Origin: Nitrososphaerales archaeon
GTDB lineage: Archaea; Thermoproteota; Nitrososphaeria; Nitrososphaerales; UBA213
Direction: 5' to 3'
DNA length: 35,573 nt
NCBI GenBank assembly: GCA_038868975.1
Contig: JAWCSA010000005.1
Span: 1 to 35,573, forward strand
Shown: piece after piece, positions 18,301 through 28,647 of the stretch
Numbering within the stretch: the stretch's first letter is position 1
Layout: every line of letters starts with the position of its first letter
The notes under the pieces: generated by a model
The model's input: only the letters and a program-made list of their open reading frames with translations
Databases searched by the model: none
Told to the model about the DNA's origin: nothing
Translations under genes and position numbers: made by a program

Positions 18301-18681
18301 ATGAGCGAACAAGAATTGCCTCCTTGGTTACGTGAGCAGGTAGCGAGGCTTAACCAACTGCAGCAGAACCTGCAGGCGATACTTATGCAGAAGCAGCAGA
18401 TAGAGATTGAACTCGCAGAAGCGGATAAGGCCCTAGAGGAGTTAAGGAAAATTAATGCAGGCGATGCTGTTTACAAGACAGCAGGACCAGTATTGATCAA
18501 GGCAAATAAAGACGAAGTCATAAAAGAATTGGAGGAGAAGAAGGAACTTGCTAATACACGTGTGATGGTTTTGTCAAAACAGGAAACTAGGTTAAAAGAG
18601 AACCTGAAGGAGGTCCAAGGCAAGATAGATGAAATGATCCGCGGCGCTGGCGCTAGTTCAACAAAGCCGAGAGCGGAGTAA
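18301..18681 (+). CDS. pfdB: Prefoldin beta subunit
   Basis: The 126-residue protein is the beta subunit of prefoldin (GimC), an ATP-independent chaperone that hands unfolded protein to the thermosome. Two long coiled-coil helices flank a short hairpin: LNQLQQNLQAILMQKQQIEI in the first, VLSKQETRLKENLKEVQGKI in the second, and the hairpin VYKTAGPVLIKA between them. This is the normal length. Its last 24 bases overlap the 3' end of the convergent deacetylase gene. Confidence 0.93.
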   Translation: MSEQELPPWLREQVARLNQLQQNLQAILMQKQQIEIELAEADKALEELRKINAGDAVYKTAGPVLIKANKDEVIKELEEKKELANTRVMVLSKQETRLKENLKEVQGKIDEMIRGAGASSTKPRAE

Positions 18682-21576
18682 TTTATCATGTCTATGCATC
18701 GAGCATTTGGAAGGTTTGAAACGCACGAAGATCAAAAATCCAAAAGTTGAAGCTAATGTTAGCAAAGCTAGGTTAAACTCAGGAACTACATGCAGCGACT
18801 CTTCAGAGCGATGATCTACGTATACCACCCATGTTTCCTTATCTTCATCAAGCCAGCTCATAGAAGGCAAAGCCTTTACACCATCGTATACTATGGGCCT
18901 ATCCGGCATTACGCTTGTTGGTATGAAGAGTAAAAGTGGTTCGTAAGACATCTCATTTCTTTCTATGTAGATTTTCTCCAATTGCATTTTGACATTAATG
19001 TCCGCGTTGCTCTTTACAACGATCCTTTCATCATTCCATGAAATATTATACTCATGAAGCACTACCTCCGGAGCATATTCAACTGGGCTAACAGCTGACA
19101 TACCACCCCAATACGCCGCAACAATTCCAGTGCCTTTATCCCTGATCCTCCATTGAATGGCATTTATGTTCGTTATATCAGGAGAACCGGTAACAACAGC
19201 CTCATCAAATGTCAAAGTGATAGGTATCCATATGTTGTTTTTCAACTTTATATCGTTATCAATCTTGAAGGTGTACCAAGATGAAAGAAAATTATCAGAT
19301 GATAGATAGAACCAGAGCTCCTGCAGATAATTTGTGTCAGTTACCTTTACCCACACCTTAATGTATTTGTTCGAAAGGTCAAGTGAAGGATTAATTGACA
19401 TCTTCCTAGTGAAGACAGGAATACCATTTCCATCTGAAACAAGTTGCAGGCTTTGCATGCCTTTTACAAAATCATTATTTTCATCAAGTTGCATTCCAGC
19501 TAGCGATTGTTTTCTAAATCCATGATCACCATTGAATTCTATAATGGGAATCTCTTTACTATATTTGGGAATCCATCCTTGCTTATCAATTTCACTTATT
19601 GTTACCATGGCGAACTCTTTTTTCAATTCACGCAGCAGGTCACGCAGTGCTTCTATCCTTTCCTTTTCGTAAATGTAATTGGAACCGTCTCTATCGTAAT
19701 ATGCTACAGGGTGCATTGATACAACAGCAAAACCATGCAGATCAACGGATTTCCTGATTCTTTCTAGCACCTGTTCATTTGCAAGTACTGTCCATTTGCC
19801 AGTAGGGGTGTCAACGTTGCTAACAAATGCCGTTTGTGGGAAGTGGAATATGGAATCACCATCTTTTAATGGGTATGGAGGTCTGTCAGGCCGTGTGAAA
19901 ACAGAACCACTTATGTGTGTTAGACCATTCTGCTGCATAACTACCAAAGTCTGTTCGTTAAAGGCATTTTCAGGAGGTATGAAGGTTTTAGGCCGCACCC
20001 CAAAGAGCTCTTCTATACGTTCATTGGTCTTCACAATAGAGTCCTGCTGCTCATCAAACGCCATTACAGAATGATCTTTATGATTCCAGCTATGGTTAGC
20101 AACCTCTATACTTCCCTTTGATACAGCATTTTGAAGAAACTCAATGAGATCCCTATCCTCATGTAAGTATCCCCCTATGATGCCAATAGTCAACGGTGCG
20201 TGCTCATCAAGAAACATGTTTATCAAGTCCTTTTGCGCATCCCTAGTAAAGTAATCCTGAACATCATCAAGCCTGAATGCTACACACTTGCAGCTGTAAG
20301 GGATTGATGATGAAACAGGGCTATTTTGTTCACTTTTCGAAACAGTTGTATAACTGGAAATTGATGAAAGATCTGTAACGTCATAAGCATGTAGCCAACC
20401 GACCTGATCTGTAACTACTGAATCATTTATGCTGGTAATGATGAATGCATAGTAGGTTCCTATCTCGTCAGGAATTATTTTCATTTCTACATTCTCTAGG
20501 TTTTGAGCAGGTATTGTTAGTGTTACATTCTGTACAATATCATATGGAAGCATACGATCCTTGTCAAGTATTAATGCAATAGTTACGTTCTTTGCTACGT
20601 GTGCAGGATTATGTATTAGCGCAGAAAATAGTGTTCTATATGTAGAAGACACGTTCGTTAATTGCCAGCTATTTATGAACGGCTCACTTCTTACAAACTT
20701 CATAGATACCTGCTTGGACGCAAGGGTGATATTCTTGCTGCCCCATTCTTCTAAATCATACAATAAGCCTTCTCGTTCCCTAAAAACGCGTACAGCATAT
20801 TCCCCTATAGGTATATTTGTGAAGAAGGCATCACCCTTTCTGTTAACTGCAGATTTAATAACCTTCTTACTATCCACGTTTTGCAACTCCACATTAAACC
20901 TTCCGTCAGACTCGTTTACAGCTTCAGATGATGTCTTGTAAACTGATAACAGGAACTGATCTACCTTTGATGGCCACGGGGTTACTACATTTATCTCCTT
21001 ACGCAATGCAGGCTCGAGCCTTATGAGGGAATGCTCGTAAACGATGTTCTTTCCCATTGAAACACTTGCTCGGTAGTAATCGCTATCAATGATGGTAGAT
21101 TGTAGCCAGAAGCGAAGTGTTTTTCCTTCGCTGTCTGTTGTGGTTTGACGCAGCAAATTTCCATCTCTGGTCTTAATGGAAACCAGCGCTCCCTCTACAG
21201 GAGTAACGCCATCATCATAGAATACATTAAAACGCATGCCACCAGAGAGTGCTATCTTGACATCAATTTTAGACTGCGTGCTTATCAGGTCTATTGAGCC
21301 GGAGCCAGCATACATTCTATTTTTATATACGTCTATCAAATACTTGTGGTTCAAAGGAATAGATGTTAGAACGTATGGATTGCTTGATACCGTATCTATG
21401 TGGGCAATAGGATTATTGTATGAATCCTGATATATCTTAAGAACCATATCCCACGGATCAACCCTGTCGCCGTTAGTATATTCTACTAGAATCTCCAATG
21501 ACCCATTTTGTTCGGAGTAAGAAGCGGCAGGTTGTACTATAATCAAAGCAAGTGTAAATAATATTAGGCACTTCAT
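18658..21576 (-). CDS. Large secreted, membrane-anchored polysaccharide deacetylase (NodB domain)
   Basis: This 972-residue protein has a signal peptide (KCLILFTLALIIVQPAASYS) and, near the end, one membrane span (LALLTLASTFGFLIFVRF), so it is bound to the outer face of the membrane. The N-terminal half holds several beta domains of the carboxypeptidase-regulatory/Ig kind. The central NodB domain covers about 430-660, with the metal-site motifs RLDD (435-438) and HSWNH (495-499), a PPENAF stretch (534-539) and SMHP (620-623). These residues support an active carbohydrate de-N-acetylase. The C-terminal third has a jelly-roll, carbohydrate-binding-like region. ATG 21576 gives the signal peptide. 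It is divergent from the amino-sugar polymer operon, so its likely substrate is that polymer. The substrate is inferred. Confidence 0.85.
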   Translation of the reverse strand: MKCLILFTLALIIVQPAASYSEQNGSLEILVEYTNGDRVDPWDMVLKIYQDSYNNPIAHIDTVSSNPYVLTSIPLNHKYLIDVYKNRMYAGSGSIDLISTQSKIDVKIALSGGMRFNVFYDDGVTPVEGALVSIKTRDGNLLRQTTTDSEGKTLRFWLQSTIIDSDYYRASVSMGKNIVYEHSLIRLEPALRKEINVVTPWPSKVDQFLLSVYKTSSEAVNESDGRFNVELQNVDSKKVIKSAVNRKGDAFFTNIPIGEYAVRVFREREGLLYDLEEWGSKNITLASKQVSMKFVRSEPFINSWQLTNVSSTYRTLFSALIHNPAHVAKNVTIALILDKDRMLPYDIVQNVTLTIPAQNLENVEMKIIPDEIGTYYAFIITSINDSVVTDQVGWLHAYDVTDLSSISSYTTVSKSEQNSPVSSSIPYSCKCVAFRLDDVQDYFTRDAQKDLINMFLDEHAPLTIGIIGGYLHEDRDLIEFLQNAVSKGSIEVANHSWNHKDHSVMAFDEQQDSIVKTNERIEELFGVRPKTFIPPENAFNEQTLVVMQQNGLTHISGSVFTRPDRPPYPLKDGDSIFHFPQTAFVSNVDTPTGKWTVLANEQVLERIRKSVDLHGFAVVSMHPVAYYDRDGSNYIYEKERIEALRDLLRELKKEFAMVTISEIDKQGWIPKYSKEIPIIEFNGDHGFRKQSLAGMQLDENNDFVKGMQSLQLVSDGNGIPVFTRKMSINPSLDLSNKYIKVWVKVTDTNYLQELWFYLSSDNFLSSWYTFKIDNDIKLKNNIWIPITLTFDEAVVTGSPDITNINAIQWRIRDKGTGIVAAYWGGMSAVSPVEYAPEVVLHEYNISWNDERIVVKSNADINVKMQLEKIYIERNEMSYEPLLLFIPTSVMPDRPIVYDGVKALPSMSWLDEDKETWVVYVDHRSEESLHVVPEFNLALLTLASTFGFLIFVRFKPSKCSMHRHDKLLRSRLC

Positions 21577-22040
21577 AAGCAAAGTCAACCCGCTACTGCT
21601 AAAAATTTTTGTAATTCTTTCAAAACCATGACAGATCCGAGAAATGTTCTAACTAAATTTATGGAGCATATGTATCTGCAATCTATTGTATTCATATCAA
21701 TCAAGCATCTTTCTATGACAATGAATGTAAGGAATACTGTGGAGAGCGTGAAACTTCCGTTTCTTCATGTTTTAAGTAATCATCATAAATAAAAGTTTCA
21801 ATTGTCTCCACAGGATTCCTTATGTTGTTACATGCCTATCTATAGCGCGGTAAAAAATGTACGCAAGATCATCGTTGTGCTTTGAGCTAGTAAGAGAAAC
21901 ACTGATTTACAGTCTAGGTAATTTTCCAAAGTTTGAATTTAATGTTTGTAAATTCGAGATGTCTTTGAGACACACACATCGATATCTAGAGTATTTTTCT
22001 TACAGTCTCAAAGGTTGGAGAGATCTTAGGGTGAAATAAC
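21577..22040. other. Intergenic region between divergent glycan genes
   Basis: This 464-bp stretch separates the start of the large deacetylase (minus) from the dehydrogenase that leads the plus-strand operon. It holds the long inverted repeat at 21728-21822. A frame of 60 codons at 21857-22039 has no recognisable protein character. Promoters for both directions must lie here, but no single TATA box is clear enough to call. Confidence 0.5.
21728..21822. repeat. Long imperfect inverted repeat (29-30 bp arms)
   Basis: The left arm 21728-21756 and right arm 21793-21822 are reverse complements apart from one mismatch and a short unpaired bulge. The cores are aaggaatactgtggaga and tctccacaggattcctt, followed by tgaaactt and aagtttca. 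A 36-base A/T-rich loop separates them. It is upstream of both divergent genes, so it is not a terminator for either. It could be a small MITE-like element, the remains of an IS end pair, or a regulatory hairpin. A related half-site occurs at 29893-29911. Confidence 0.75.
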
Positions 22041-22904
22041 ATGGAAGCAAAGAGGGTTCTTGTAATAGGATTGGGGCAGATCGGGTACAGTAACGCTGAA
22101 TACATGTCATCAAAAGGAATAGAGGTAGATGGATATGATATAAGTGAAAAAGCGGTTAAGAGAGCATTAGATAACAATGTAATTAGAAGCAGAGCAAAGA
22201 GTTTCCATGATTATGATTACTATGTTATTTGCATTTCAACACACAAACCTGACAACATGTTCATACCATATCTAGATGGTCTTTACGACATAGCCAGAAG
22301 AATATCGTATGAAGGTAAAACAGGTGCGCTTGTGGGAATTGACAGCACCGTTACGAGAGGTACATGCAATAGAGTGAAGGAAATCCTTAACCACCGGCTC
22401 CATGTTTCTCATGTACCCCATAGGTATTATGTTAATGAGGCTAAAGAGCATGGCGTAAGGCAGACAAGGGTGCTTGCTGGCTGCGAGCCTTGTTGCACAA
22501 GGGAAGCTAGACACTTTTATGGACATATGCTTGATATTCCCTTACACGTTGTAAGCTCAATTGATATTGCAGAACTTTCCAAAGTAGTTGAAAATTCCTA
22601 CAGATTTGTTGAGATTGCCTTCGCAGAAGAGCTGAAAATGATTTGCGATGGCTATGGCATAGATTTTAATGAATTAAGGACAGCTGTGAACACAAAGTGG
22701 AACATCAAGATTCTAGAAGCTAGAGATGGCATAGGAGGACACTGCCTTCCAAAGGATAGTCAGATGTTTCTTAGCCTATCAAGTAATGTATTGGAATCAA
22801 GCATCGTCGAGGCAGCAAAGCTAATCGATTACAAATACAGGGCGCATATTGGGCAGAAGGCTACACAAATAATGTCGTTAAGAAGTGAGGGATCGGAACT
22901 TTGA
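22041..22904 (+). CDS. Nucleotide-sugar (UDP-Glc/UDP-ManNAc type) dehydrogenase, short form
   Basis: The 287-residue protein belongs to the UDP-glucose/GDP-mannose dehydrogenase family, which oxidises NDP-sugars to uronic acids with NAD. It has the Rossmann motif GLGQIG (10-15, usually GxGYVG), DSTVTRGT, the central helix SKVVENSYRFVEIAFAEEL with the catalytic-site Lys (181) and Asn (185), and GIGGHCLPKDS with the catalytic Cys (235). The third domain of the family, about 100 residues that help bind the UDP, is absent; the frame ends soon after the central domain. It is the first gene of the plus-strand run, and its stop overlaps the next start (TTGA). A working enzyme is possible, since the catalytic residues are kept, but the substrate is unknown. 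Confidence 0.8.
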   Translation: MEAKRVLVIGLGQIGYSNAEYMSSKGIEVDGYDISEKAVKRALDNNVIRSRAKSFHDYDYYVICISTHKPDNMFIPYLDGLYDIARRISYEGKTGALVGIDSTVTRGTCNRVKEILNHRLHVSHVPHRYYVNEAKEHGVRQTRVLAGCEPCCTREARHFYGHMLDIPLHVVSSIDIAELSKVVENSYRFVEIAFAEELKMICDGYGIDFNELRTAVNTKWNIKILEARDGIGGHCLPKDSQMFLSLSSNVLESSIVEAAKLIDYKYRAHIGQKATQIMSLRSEGSEL

Positions 22905-23641
22905 AACTACTCCATTTAGCAGCAATCTCCACTGGAATCGTAATTGCATTGGGCATATTGATGGTGGCTCCAGCTTTTACTCAGATGCGACATCAAACTC
23001 CGAAATCAATAGTGATGCTTTCCTTTAGTGTAGTTGATGATACAGATGTTCTAACATGGTGCAACGAGCTATCATCTGTTCTAAATAAGCATAATATCAA
23101 AGCAACTGTATTTGTCACGGGCAAGATAGCGGAACAATACCCTCAATGCGTTACTGATTTTGTAAATAACATCAAGATCGATATTGGCAGTCAGACATAC
23201 AACTATGTAGATCTTACTTCAATTTCTGATTATAGTATACAACTTGAGGAGGTCAGGAATGGTAAGCTAGCAATAGATGAGGCAGGGAGAATCTATTCAC
23301 GAGTTTTCAAAGCACCGTATGGTGCTACTGATGACAATATCTACTCAATTCTAAGCAGGTCTGATATAATTGCCGATTTTTCATATGACAAGCGATACAA
23401 CAAATATTACAATGATCAGTTTATCTGGTTCACAATCGATACATATAGCGGTTCTACGTATTCAGCCAGTTTCTTCCAAACTCTTCCTGTGCTTGATACA
23501 CCAATTATTATCAGTTTCGATAACCTCACATCTTCAAGGGAAATTGATACTTTTATTTCCCAACTAAAATCAAGTAGCGTTCAGTTTGTTAATGCATCAG
23601 AGCTGACCGGTCTGGAACTTACCATTAGGGGGAGTATTTAG
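22901..23641 (+). CDS. NodB-like deacetylase homologue with metal ligands lost (likely pseudo-enzyme)
   Basis: The 246-residue protein has an N-terminal signal or anchor helix (ISTGIVIALGILMVAPAF), then the polysaccharide deacetylase fold: CNELSSVLNKHNIKATVFVTG, the strand IDIGSQTYNYVDLTSIS and FKAPYGATDDNIYS. In active members the second stretch reads GSHTYxHxDL; here both metal-binding histidines are Gln and Tyr. The first motif (TFDDG) is SFSVVDDTDV, so the Asp pair is displaced. The RxPYG motif is partly kept as KAPYG. The fold is clear, but zinc chemistry is unlikely. It may bind polymer or help the synthase. TTG 22901 overlaps the dehydrogenase stop, and the GT2 gene starts two bases after its own stop. 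Confidence 0.78.
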   Translation: MKLLHLAAISTGIVIALGILMVAPAFTQMRHQTPKSIVMLSFSVVDDTDVLTWCNELSSVLNKHNIKATVFVTGKIAEQYPQCVTDFVNNIKIDIGSQTYNYVDLTSISDYSIQLEEVRNGKLAIDEAGRIYSRVFKAPYGATDDNIYSILSRSDIIADFSYDKRYNKYYNDQFIWFTIDTYSGSTYSASFFQTLPVLDTPIIISFDNLTSSREIDTFISQLKSSSVQFVNASELTGLELTIRGSI

Positions 23642-23643
23642 AT

Positions 23644-25047
23644 TTGCCACTAGAACATCCGACCTTAACAACGTCAAATAAAACATTTTCTACACTACGT
23701 TGTGGCCAACAAATCGCAAAAAGTGGTAGGATCAAGGTCAGTAAAAAAGCATGGTCTGTAAGATTTGTAGCATTATTGGGCGCTAGTTTTTTTGTTGCCT
23801 ACAACATATTACTAGGATTAGAAGTGAAGGATCCATTCGTTATATATTCAACATTGCTACCATTACATTCAGTAGCGTACTTGGTTGTAGGTTGGTTATT
23901 TTACAGGAACCCAGCGACCGGAAAGGTAGGAAATGATCTAGTATCAGTTATAATTCCAGTATATAATCAGAAGACAGTTATAGAGGATGTTATCGATGCG
24001 GTTTACAATTCTACTTATAAAAATATTGAAGTTATCGCAGTTAACGATGGAAGCAAGGACGGCACGAGAGAAGTCCTCGATTCAATTGCAAAAAAGCATC
24101 GTGGTCTGAAGGTTATACACAAACATAATGAGGGAAAAAGGAAAGCAGTTGCCACAGGTTTCTATGAATCTAAGGCCAACTTTGTCGTGTTAATTGACTC
24201 GGACAGCATTATAGACAAGCATGCAATTACAGAACTTATGAAAGCGTTTTACGCAGATCCAACTATTGGTGCTACAGTTGCATATGCTAAGGTGGCAAAT
24301 GTGAACAAGAATATTATAACAAAATGTCAGGATGCTTGGTACGACTATTCTTTCAATATCAGGAAAGCAGCAGAAAGCAGTTTCGGGAATGTGTTGTGTT
24401 GTTCTGGGTGTATGGCAGCATACAGACGTGAAGCTATAGCTCACTACATTCCATATTGGATCAGATCTAGGCTGCCAAATAGTGATGATAGAGAACTCAC
24501 AACATCAGTGATACTACCTCCTTTTACCAAGAAACTATTGGAAGCGATGGCAGCGTACGATGATGCTGAAGATCGTGGATTAACAGGACAAGCATTGGTT
24601 GAATGGAAGGCTGTGTATGTTCCCACTGCAGTTGTATATACCGAAGTTCCTTACACAATGAAGATATTTCTAAGACAGCAGAAACGATGGAAAAAAGGTA
24701 CCACACGAGTGAACTTCTTTATGAGTGCGTTCTTCTGGCGTAAACATCCAGTTATGTCACTAATTTTTTACATCGATTTTATGATGACGTTCACCACGCC
24801 ATTTATAGTTGCCATAATATTCGTGTATAACCCTTTCATACTACAGAATGCTTGGTTATCGACTTCATTTATTGCAGGTATGGTGTTTCTAAGTATAGTT
24901 CATGGATTAGACTACAAGTTCCGTGATCCCATATCCACAAATTGGAAGTATAAACCGTTGATGAATCTGATCACGGCTTTCATACTTTCTTGGTTGATAT
25001 TTCCTGCAATCTGGAGTTACAGAAAAAACGAGTGGGGAACAAGGTAA
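23644..25047 (+). CDS. Processive GT2 glycosyltransferase, hyaluronan/chitin/NodC-synthase type
   Basis: The 467-residue membrane protein is a processive beta-glycosyltransferase that polymerises sugar from UDP-donors and moves the chain through the membrane. Two spans (about 42-58 and 68-86) precede the catalytic domain. Key motifs are VNDGSKDGT (133-141), DSDS (185-188), CCSGCMAAYRR (252-262), SDDREL (280-285, the GDDR acceptor motif) and QQKRW (345-349, the QxxRW of processive enzymes). Three or four further spans follow. Between the last two motifs there are roughly 25 more residues than I recall in streptococcal HasA. The start is TTG 23644. The sugars cannot be read from the sequence; the neighbouring GlmS and GNA1-like genes point to GlcNAc in the product. 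Confidence 0.9.
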   Translation: MPLEHPTLTTSNKTFSTLRCGQQIAKSGRIKVSKKAWSVRFVALLGASFFVAYNILLGLEVKDPFVIYSTLLPLHSVAYLVVGWLFYRNPATGKVGNDLVSVIIPVYNQKTVIEDVIDAVYNSTYKNIEVIAVNDGSKDGTREVLDSIAKKHRGLKVIHKHNEGKRKAVATGFYESKANFVVLIDSDSIIDKHAITELMKAFYADPTIGATVAYAKVANVNKNIITKCQDAWYDYSFNIRKAAESSFGNVLCCSGCMAAYRREAIAHYIPYWIRSRLPNSDDRELTTSVILPPFTKKLLEAMAAYDDAEDRGLTGQALVEWKAVYVPTAVVYTEVPYTMKIFLRQQKRWKKGTTRVNFFMSAFFWRKHPVMSLIFYIDFMMTFTTPFIVAIIFVYNPFILQNAWLSTSFIAGMVFLSIVHGLDYKFRDPISTNWKYKPLMNLITAFILSWLIFPAIWSYRKNEWGTR

Positions 25048-25060
25048 GAACGAGGTTATT

Positions 25061-25276
25061 ATGATGCGAAACACTCAACGTTGCAAGAAACACACTGAAC
25101 CGATGCCACTATTCCCATGTAAAATATTTGGAAATGTGACAGTCGGATACTACTGCGTTGCATGCCATGATTTCATTGCTATACCAATAGTACCTGAGGT
25201 AGATGTGTTAAACAAACTGATAGAAACGTGCAGGAACGGCACGTTTGAGAGGAGTGAATTGCAATGTGCTCAATAA
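25061..25276 (+). CDS. Small Cys/His-rich protein of the glycan operon
   Basis: The 71-residue protein is not one I recognise. It has four cysteines and one histidine in its first half, arranged as CKKH (8-11), FPC (21), then CVAC (32-35) in VGYYCVACHDFIAIP. This CxxH...C...CxxC order suggests a zinc-ribbon-like metal site. The second half is a helix, VDVLNKLIETCRNG. It starts 13 bases after the synthase stop and overlaps the glmS start by 13 bases, so it is almost surely translated with them. A regulatory or binding role for the synthase or GlmS is possible but only a guess. Confidence 0.65.
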   Translation: MMRNTQRCKKHTEPMPLFPCKIFGNVTVGYYCVACHDFIAIPIVPEVDVLNKLIETCRNGTFERSELQCAQ

Positions 25277-27018
25277 TAGGATACAAGGGGAAATTGGCTG
25301 CGGCACCCATCTTAGTAGAAAGCCTGCAGCGTATGGAGTACCGGGGCTATGATAGTGTAGGGATGGCAATCATTAATGATCGCAGAATTCTCTTGCGAAA
25401 AGGGGTTGGCAAGGTCTTAGAAGTAAATCGATCTTTGAACTTGGAAGAGATGAGCGGTAATATAGGTATTGGACATACTAGGTGGGCTACACACGGAGCG
25501 GTTACAGATTACAATGCCCACCCGCATTCCTCATGCTCCAATGACATCGTAGTGGTGCACAATGGTATAATAGAAAATTACATGGAACTCAAGGAAGAGC
25601 TAATTCAGAAAGGGCATGTGTTTAAGAGTCAGACTGACAGCGAAGTGATCGCTCACCTTCTTGAAGAATATTATAATCGTAGTGTTAAAAGAGCAATAAT
25701 TCAGACCTGCAAAAGGCTCAAGGGGTCATATGCCTTTGTGGCCGTTTTTACAAATGGAACAATTGCTGGGGCTCGATATGATGAACCGCTAATCGTTGGT
25801 ATAGCGAAAAACGGCTACTTTCTGTCAAGCGATGTTCTTGGCTTCTTGAAATATACTGACAAGGCAATATTTCTGGATAACTGCGATATAGTTCTCTTAA
25901 ATCATGCATTATCGATATTCGATTTCAGTGGCAGAAAGATCACACGTCCAGTTACCCAAGTTGCCTGGGAGCTTGGTGCTGTTGAAAAGGGCAGGTATGC
26001 CCATTATACACTAAAGGAAATAAATGAGCAGAAGTATACGATCGTTAATGCTGCCAATCAGAATGAAACGATGATGCAACTTTTCTGTGATATCATATCA
26101 AAAGCAAGGAGCCTGTACATTACTGGCAGTGGCACAAGTTACAACGCTGCATTAATAGCAAAGCATATCTTCGCAAAATTTGTCAAGATAAGAGCAGAAA
26201 CGATAATGTCAAGCGAGTTTCAATATGCACCAGAGATCTTAGACGAAGATTCTGTATTAATTGCAATTTCGCAGAGTGGTGAGACTGCAGATGTGTTGCA
26301 ATCTGCAAAGACTGCTAAAGCGTTCAAGGCGAGAGTTCTCTCAATAGTGAACATTCCAACATCTTCACTTGCTAGGATCAGCGATGCATTTTTGGGTATA
26401 AACTGCGGTCCTGAAGTGGGAGTTGCGGCAACGAAGAGTTTTACCGGACAGTTGGCAGTGATCTATAATGTAGCTGATAGGCTTTGCGAAGGCTGCATTG
26501 GAATTGCAGATAGAGAGGATATCACAAGAACAGTAAAAGCAGTTCTTGCAGAATCGGAAGTGATAGCAGATATTGCTAATGAGTTTCAAGATGTTAAAGA
26601 CATCTATTTGCTTGGAAGAGCATCTCACTATCCAATAGCTTTGGAAGGTGCATTGAAACTAAAGGAGTTAGCATATGTGCATGCGGAGGGCATAGCAGCA
26701 GGAGAGTTGAAACATGGACCACTTGCATTGATGGACAAGGATACCGAAGTCATAATCTTGAACCCTTCAGATTCAACCTACGATGATACGCTATCAAACG
26801 TCCATGAGATAAAGGCCAGAGGTGCAAAGATCATAGGCATTTCCGACAAGTATGATAGTGTGTATGATCATTTGATCAAAATTCCAAAGGTGAATGAGGC
26901 ACTCTATCCTCTGATCGAGGTTATTCCCTTACAGATGCTTGCATATCATACTGCTTTAATGAGAAATGCTGATCCAGACTATCCCCGTAATTTAGCAAAG
27001 TCGGTTACGGTCAAGTAA
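25264..27018 (+). CDS. glmS: Glutamine-fructose-6-phosphate aminotransferase (isomerising)
   Basis: This 584-residue enzyme makes glucosamine-6-phosphate from fructose-6-phosphate and glutamine, the entry to amino sugars. Cys2 after the start Met is the glutaminase nucleophile (MCSIIGYKG). HTRWATHG (71-78) and HNGIIENY (99-106) belong to the glutaminase domain. Two SIS sugar-isomerase domains follow, with GSGTSYN (288-294) and SQSGETAD (about 335-342). The family end, with HAEGIAAGELKHGPLAL and PRNLAKSVTVK, is intact. It lies in the operon after the GT2 synthase and before the GNA1-like acetyltransferase, so supply of precursor and polymerisation are co-transcribed. Confidence 0.96.
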   Translation: MCSIIGYKGKLAAAPILVESLQRMEYRGYDSVGMAIINDRRILLRKGVGKVLEVNRSLNLEEMSGNIGIGHTRWATHGAVTDYNAHPHSSCSNDIVVVHNGIIENYMELKEELIQKGHVFKSQTDSEVIAHLLEEYYNRSVKRAIIQTCKRLKGSYAFVAVFTNGTIAGARYDEPLIVGIAKNGYFLSSDVLGFLKYTDKAIFLDNCDIVLLNHALSIFDFSGRKITRPVTQVAWELGAVEKGRYAHYTLKEINEQKYTIVNAANQNETMMQLFCDIISKARSLYITGSGTSYNAALIAKHIFAKFVKIRAETIMSSEFQYAPEILDEDSVLIAISQSGETADVLQSAKTAKAFKARVLSIVNIPTSSLARISDAFLGINCGPEVGVAATKSFTGQLAVIYNVADRLCEGCIGIADREDITRTVKAVLAESEVIADIANEFQDVKDIYLLGRASHYPIALEGALKLKELAYVHAEGIAAGELKHGPLALMDKDTEVIILNPSDSTYDDTLSNVHEIKARGAKIIGISDKYDSVYDHLIKIPKVNEALYPLIEVIPLQMLAYHTALMRNADPDYPRNLAKSVTVK

Positions 27019-28023: not shown

Positions 28024-28647
28024 ATGCGACATATGATAATTTTTGGGATAGCAGGATCATTGCTACTGTTGTCACTCTTATCGTTATCGAATCTTCAAGT
28101 AATAGCTACCGAATCTGATAAGAGTAATTCTATAGGTATATGTTGTGCTTGGAACAGTAAGCTTGCAGATGGTGAACTGAGCTTCAAAATAAGTGGCGGT
28201 GATGAAACTGCTCGTAACGCAGTTCGAGATGCGATAAAAGAGTGGGAGATCGTACAGGATCTTACACTTACCGAAATCTCTGGAAAGGAGAAGATTGACA
28301 TAAATGTGCAGTTCAAGAAAGGTGGCGGCATGATAGCTGGACAAGCTCTGCGCAAATTCGATGGCAACAGTTTCATAGATTCCGTACAGATACAGATATC
28401 AGGCAGTGCTTTTGGCACCCCAAGTAATGTCGCAACGGTAAAGCAGATAACAAGACATGAAATGGGCCATGCCTTGGGTATAGGACATGCAAACTTTGAC
28501 GGCGATCTAATGTCAACTACTGTTCAATCAGGAAGCGAGAACGTATCTATATGTGATATCAATGGAGTAAAAGCGGCAAATCATTTGAAGTTTGAAGATA
28601 ACAGTTCTCCGCATCATCCACATACAGATCATGTGCATTGTACATAG
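28024..28647 (+). CDS. Secreted matrixin-type zinc metalloprotease
   Basis: The 207-residue protein has a signal peptide (MIIFGIAGSLLLLSLLSLSN) and the metzincin zinc motif HEMGHALGIGH (145-155), with an Asp-rich stretch and Met163 as the Met-turn (DGDLMS). This is the matrixin/M10 pattern. The N-terminal part, LSFKISGGDETARNAVRDAI, matches the usual strand and helix before the active site. The tail is unusually rich in histidine (HHPHTDHVHC, 197-206), so it may bind extra metal. No propeptide cysteine switch is obvious, but C40-C41 lie near the start of the mature part. A TATA-like tacttattat is about 28 bases before the ATG, which suggests a leaderless transcript. The target is unknown. Confidence 0.82.
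   Translation: MRHMIIFGIAGSLLLLSLLSLSNLQVIATESDKSNSIGICCAWNSKLADGELSFKISGGDETARNAVRDAIKEWEIVQDLTLTEISGKEKIDINVQFKKGGGMIAGQALRKFDGNSFIDSVQIQISGSAFGTPSNVATVKQITRHEMGHALGIGHANFDGDLMSTTVQSGSENVSICDINGVKAANHLKFEDNSSPHHPHTDHVHCT

Follow-up and report, generated by a model that had tools for sequence, protein, structure and literature searches.

A NodB-fold protein lacking the metal-binding and catalytic residues of CE4 deacetylases, encoded beside a polymer synthase in archaea and Chloroflexi

Why would a protein with the fold of a polysaccharide deacetylase, but without its catalytic residues, be kept next to a polymer synthase? The question is raised by a gene in the window analysed here, a stretch of 35,573 nucleotides from a Nitrososphaerales archaeon (assembly GCA_038868975.1, contig JAWCSA010000005.1). 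The host genome (1.82 Mb, 133 contigs, 97.8% complete) is that of an ammonia-oxidising archaeon, as judged by its AmoA (E 6e-113). The gene, whose family we call F0, is the middle member of a three-gene cassette, and the genes considered at this locus are as follows.

22041..22904, + strand: short UDP-sugar-dehydrogenase-like gene, 287 aa, NAD and central domains only
22901..23641, + strand: F0 pseudo-NodB gene, 246 aa, TTG start, N-terminal membrane anchor (as read from the model) and NodB barrel
23644..25047, + strand: processive-type GT2 polymer synthase gene, 467 aa; nearest named proteins PgaC/IcaA, NodC and hyaluronan synthase
25264..27018, + strand: GlmS-like glucosamine-6-phosphate synthase gene, adjoining the cassette here and in three Chloroflexi loci
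18658..21588, − strand: 976-aa secreted-looking protein, divergent from the cassette, with an intact-looking NodB domain in mid-protein (motifs FRLDDV and NHSWNH kept)

The dehydrogenase-like gene overlaps F0 by 4 nt, and GT2 begins at 23644, with 2 nt between it and the F0 stop; the first-pass annotation had described this spacing as two bases. The first residue of F0 is matched by aligned relatives with ATG starts. A small secreted-looking protein with a zinc-protease-like motif, HEMGHALGIGH (recognized by eye), is encoded at 28024-28647.

Fold and catalytic motifs of F0

By profile and predicted structure, F0 is a NodB-fold (CE4-like) protein. It matches PF01522 (Polysacc_deac_1) in Pfam above the cut-off (E 5.7e-17), and an AlphaFold2 model built on 24 aligned family members shows a barrel preceded by a helix at the N-terminus (residues 2-30), with a pLDDT of 91.8 and a pTM of 0.83. 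The top Foldseek match of this model is the Bacillus cereus deacetylase 4l1g (E 5e-11). In VIA-align 2 the model superposes on 7fbw with a Z of 19.6 and an rmsd of 2.4 for 178 aligned positions, on BA3943 and BA0150 with Z values of 19.4-19.5 and 18.8, and on EcCDA (2vyo) and PuuE (3cl6) with Z values of 17.6 and 17.0, respectively. IcaB (4wcj) and PgaB (3vus) are weak Foldseek matches (TM 0.36-0.46) and are not among the best 50 VIA-align 2 matches. The first-pass annotation had called the rest of the NodB fold well kept, and the domain match and the superposition of a confident model on CE4 folds, pseudoenzymes included, bear this out. The N-terminal hydrophobic helix has conserved Thr11, Gly18 and Pro24; we read it as anchoring the protein in the membrane, its N-terminus presumably inside.

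The catalytic motifs were placed by aligning F0 with intact NodB proteins, most of them from genomes that also carry the F0 family, and the placement of MT2 was also drawn from alignments to solved structures. The resulting features are all on the + strand.

22904..22975, +: N-terminal hydrophobic helix, residues about 2-25, from the model and column conservation
23027..23032, +: MT1 remnant, Ser43-Val44 in place of the Asp-Asp of active enzymes, from the alignment with intact homologues
23189..23206, +: MT2 remnant, S97-Q98-T-Y-N-Y102 in place of (N/S)-H-(T/S)-x-x-H
23306..23323, +: MT3, mostly kept as FKAPYG (Arg replaced by Lys, the first Pro by Ala)
23375..23401, +: family signature DFSYxxxYN, with D159 and S161 invariant and Y166 and N167 nearly so
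23516..23521, +: MT5 remnant, Phe206-Asp207 in place of the xH of active enzymes

In this alignment Gln98 and Tyr102 stand on the two MT2 His columns and Ser43-Val44 on the MT1 Asp pair, so the earlier remarks that both MT2 histidines have become Gln and Tyr, and that SFSVVDD is without the DDG form, hold. We rejected the idea that the VDD here is a DDG that has shifted, since Ser43-Val44 occupy the Asp-pair columns and D46-D47 lie in the loop after MT1, where they are unconserved (Asp in 10 and 3 of 30 relatives, respectively). Beyond what had been listed before, the MT5 His is also lost, Asp207 taking its place. What is left of MT5 sits towards the C-terminal end, which is the NodB1 arrangement; in the NodB2 order (IcaB/PgaB type) MT5 comes first. 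The Asp-His-His metal triad and the catalytic MT1 Asp and MT5 His of CE4 deacetylases are absent from the F0 protein of the window.

The same residues were counted in 32 distinct full-length F0 sequences from Nitrososphaeria, Bathyarchaeota and Chloroflexi, after removal of three fragments (L023, L030 and L085) and one partly masked sequence (L082). The metal Asp column holds Ile, Val, Met or Leu in 32/32 sequences and never Asp. The second MT2 His column holds Tyr in 25, Asn in six and Lys in one (His 0/32), and the MT5 column Asp in 30, Asn in one and Ser in one (His 0/32). The first MT2 His is kept in a single sequence (L079; 1/32). The first MT1 position varies among Ser, Asp, Glu, Asn and Ile, with Asp in 6/32 and Asp or Glu in 10/32. 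S97, D159 and S161 are found in 32/32 sequences, N167 in 31/32 and Y166 in 30/32. No conserved His column was found anywhere in the F0 family, by alignment or profile. A C54-C83 disulfide was considered as a family feature and dropped, Cys54 being present in 30/32 sequences and Cys83 in only 23/32.

The loss of the motifs is more than chance, because it is common to all 32 distinct relatives, and its simplest reading would be that the motifs were lost once, in the ancestor of the family. The first-pass annotation had named intact ligands in relatives at the same locus as the finding that would count against it; the metal Asp and the second MT2 His are absent in 32/32 relatives and the first MT2 His in 31/32, and with a single basal loss as the simplest reading this sequence-based refutation fails. 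Canonical CE4 catalysis has, very probably, been lost in F0.

The gene does not behave like a relic. In four close Nitrosotalea pairs (L061/L062, L061/L063, L062/L063 and L062/L067) the dN/dS of F0 is 0.053-0.085, compared with 0.039-0.065 for the GT2 gene; two more distant pairs give 0.15 and 0.45 for F0, with dS > 1, and are little informative. Positions of the former groove have a mean conservation of 0.71 against 0.60 for the rest of the barrel, a value reached by 6/204 circular shifts, with groove ranges that were picked after viewing the alignment. F0 evolves faster than GT2 (mean distance 0.90 versus 0.59 in archaea). On the substitution ratios, F0 is under purifying selection and is not decaying. 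That a decaying deacetylase relic is simply carried along with the synthase would fit the lost catalytic residues and the faster evolution of F0, but the dN/dS of 0.05-0.09 in close pairs, the identical losses from archaea to Chloroflexi and the conserved fold make this reading barely credible.

The cassette and the pairing of F0 with the synthase

We compared 26 loci, 25 from named genomes and that of the window. The named genomes are of Nitrosotalea, Nitrososphaera, Nitrosopumilaceae, Nitrosarchaeum and Bathyarchaeota, together with three contigs labelled Chloroflexi. The genes usually run in the order dehydrogenase, F0, GT2: the GT2 gene adjoins F0 in 25/26 loci and the dehydrogenase gene is present in 23/26, some of the missing genes being due to contig ends. 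The genome of L073 has a GT2 gene of the cassette kind on another contig. F0 and GT2 overlap by 4 nt in 13/25 loci, and they overlap or lie within 11 nt of each other in 24/25, with a crude choice of starts. The first-pass annotation had proposed a pseudo-enzyme kept in an operon, and this is strongly supported by the family-wide loss, the purifying selection and the conservation of the cassette in two archaeal groups and Chloroflexi.

F0 is rare and patchy. An orthologue was found in 20/400 genomes of the class, the full-length copies having 42-55% identity (the copy of the window left out); 24/400 genomes gave a match, four of them only through weak matches to ordinary NodB proteins. These weak matches (L024-L027) were considered as intermediates and rejected, as they look like ordinary NodB proteins, with an acidic MT1 and H..H in all three that were read. 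Elsewhere F0 occurs in 6/398 genomes sampled in the phylum, in 2/294 of the class of one Chloroflexi carrier and in 7/256 of the class of one Bathyarchaeota carrier. A search for viral relatives gave four pattern matches and no F0 relative among them. We recognized no published account of the family in literature searches, which mostly did not reach subscription papers.

The nearest named models of the GT2 protein are PgaC_IcaA (E 6e-43) and NodC, and its nearest solved structures are those of hyaluronan synthase; every named model scores below its own curated cut-off. The dehydrogenase of the window contains PF00984 and PF03721 and no PF03720 in Pfam, and its nearest solved structure is a UDP-ManNAcA dehydrogenase (4r16). 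The archaeal cassette dehydrogenases (20 loci, from among L061-L084 and the window) are about 280-345 aa long, too short for the C-terminal UDP-binding PF03720, and those of Chloroflexi are 418-446 aa long, with PF03720 present in L077. Where 4r16 has PER, the archaeal proteins have PHR in 19/19 readable cases (by eye), and the cysteine of GHCLPKD is kept. Re-purposing may thus have reached the dehydrogenase, with which the cassette opens, as well. In Nitrosotalea the cassettes (L062:12191-16566) are followed by genes for an MBOAT acyltransferase and for a DltD-like protein that carries long pentapeptide repeats; these neighbours suggest that the polymer is acylated.

The distances between F0 proteins follow those between the synthases. 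Among 21 loci with all three genes (L070, L082 and L085 left out), the 19 archaeal ones give a correlation of 0.70 between F0 and GT2 distances. With the dehydrogenase partialled out it is 0.56 (permutation p 0.0002); the partial correlation is 0.36 (p 0.015) for F0 and dehydrogenase given GT2 and 0.22 (p 0.08) for GT2 and dehydrogenase given F0. In the pairs L068/L083 and L065/L074 the dehydrogenases are 89% and 91% identical, the F0 proteins 44% and 54%, and the GT2 proteins 54% and 68%, as if F0 and GT2 had been replaced jointly. Where the synthase is more distant (30-44% identity), in 12 loci from the same order (L132-L143), F0 was absent from 12/12, within about 9 kb on each side or up to the contig end. 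Extra GT2 genes of the F0-linked subclade without their own F0 occur in G136 and in the genome of L072; in these two genomes F0 would be either shared or dispensable for synthesis. A Nitrososphaera-like locus (L144; G132:C1) has two tandem dehydrogenase-F0-GT2 cassettes, and L145 (G136:C1) has a cassette and then a dehydrogenase-GT2 pair without F0.

Likeness to known NodB-fold systems

BA0150 and EcCDA are precedents of lost function among CE4 proteins, and PuuE is a metal-free NodB fold (PMC10967932). The pseudoenzyme labels of BA3943 (7bkf, 6hpa and 6hm9) and BA0150 (4m1b), and the inactivity of EcCDA (2vyo), are taken from the PDB titles and from the same paper. Like F0, these three have a NodB fold from which metal or catalytic residues are lost. 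Unlike F0, they are bacterial or microsporidian, and no tie to a polymer synthase was found in the parts of the sources consulted; F0 forms a family of its own that goes with a single GT2 subclade. PuuE (3cl6) resembles F0 in the loss of the MT1 Asp pair and of the second MT2 His (PMC10967932); it keeps the MT5 His, however, whereas F0 lacks it (0/32) and has a membrane anchor.

Among synthases, the Streptomyces PNAG synthase MatB has GT2 and NodB-like esterase parts, and both MatB and the staphylococcal IcaA/IcaB couple a processive GlcNAc-type GT2 with an extracellular NodB domain (PMC5972031), much as F0, presumably extracellular, adjoins a GT2 that is nearest to PgaC/IcaA. The NodB parts of MatB and IcaB are described as deacetylases, whereas F0 is a separate chain without catalytic residues, occurs in archaea and Chloroflexi, and has a dehydrogenase gene next to its own. 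PelADA of Bacillus cereus is an extracellular CE4 domain with a proposed feedback on polymer synthesis; unlike F0 it works by catalysis, and its MT1/MT2 mutants give no detectable polymer (PMC13254593). MatB, PelADA, PuuE, BA0150 and EcCDA are likenesses and do not define membership: F0 has the NodB fold and lacks the features of a CE4 enzyme.

Candidate roles of F0

We consider it reasonably probable that F0 is a membrane-tethered, non-catalytic partner of the GT2 synthase, whose old groove holds or guides the nascent amino-sugar polymer or reports its presence. Hyaluronan-synthase-like GT2s export their own product through their own membrane part. The N-terminal helix would tether F0 next to the synthase, with the barrel outside the membrane and close to the exit of the synthase channel. 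There the old substrate groove, minus its metal ligands and catalytic His and Asp, would hold or guide the emerging polymer or, alternatively, would signal its presence to the synthase; the polymer would not be deacetylated. In this model we infer the topology, the binding of polymer and its nature, GlcNAc-like or with an amino-uronate. The anchor, the conserved groove and the joint evolution of F0 and GT2 would fit the suggestion of the first-pass annotation that the protein may bind or guide polymer where it leaves the synthase. Against the partnership stand the faster evolution of F0 relative to GT2 and the extra GT2 genes without their own F0 in G136 and the L072 genome.

The invariant residues could instead belong to a rebuilt enzyme, in which D159, S161, Y166, N167 and Asp207 carry out metal-free chemistry, as in the allantoinase PuuE, on the nascent polymer or on another substrate. 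S97, D159, S161 and position 207 lie in loops after strands, at the old active site (secondary structure of the model); the first three are invariant and the last is Asp in 30/32, and PuuE offers the precedent of a NodB fold working without metal (PMC10967932). However, a binding groove explains the invariant residues too, no known catalytic constellation was recognized and the first MT1 position is variable, and we regard a rebuilt enzyme as rather unlikely. That the F0 pocket is a metal-free active site working on polymer as it leaves the synthase, which would make F0 a new type of NodB-fold enzyme, is a long shot. Sequence comparison might also misread a normal deacetylase whose metal site has moved; in favour of this are the acidic residues (Asp or Glu) that 10/32 sequences keep at MT1 position 1 and the conserved Asp207 and Asp159. 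Such an enzyme is highly improbable, as the MT5 His is replaced in 32/32 sequences along with the metal Asp and the second MT2 His, and the family has no conserved His column.

F0 might also act as a regulatory subunit that pairs with a nearby intact NodB deacetylase or passes polymer to it. In 17/26 loci there is a NodB-like protein from a loose cluster, F3, mostly with FRLDD-type motifs; the copy in the window is the one at 18658-21588. Its place, strand and length vary, however, and none lies near the cassette in 9/26 loci, some of which are cut by contig ends. In two Chloroflexi genomes, whose completeness is not stated, F0 is the sole PF01522 protein found, and an intact NodB partner is therefore seemingly unneeded there. 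This pairing seems to us distinctly improbable.

A non-catalytic partnership with GT2 would bear on how such genes are read. Family models label F0 proteins as polysaccharide deacetylases, and work on the matrix of ammonia-oxidising archaea takes such annotations as deacetylases; in N. viennensis grown on filters, genes for a glycosyl transferase and for an annotated 'exported polysaccharide deacetylase' rise (PMC11561398). A study of how these archaea gained EPS genes names no deacetylase in its main text (PMC7554672). If F0 is a non-catalytic subunit of the synthase, the polymer of the cassette may stay acetylated. The cassette would then provide a compact, conserved system in which to study how a NodB domain can control a processive synthase by non-chemical means, much the question that the feedback proposed for PelADA raises (PMC13254593).
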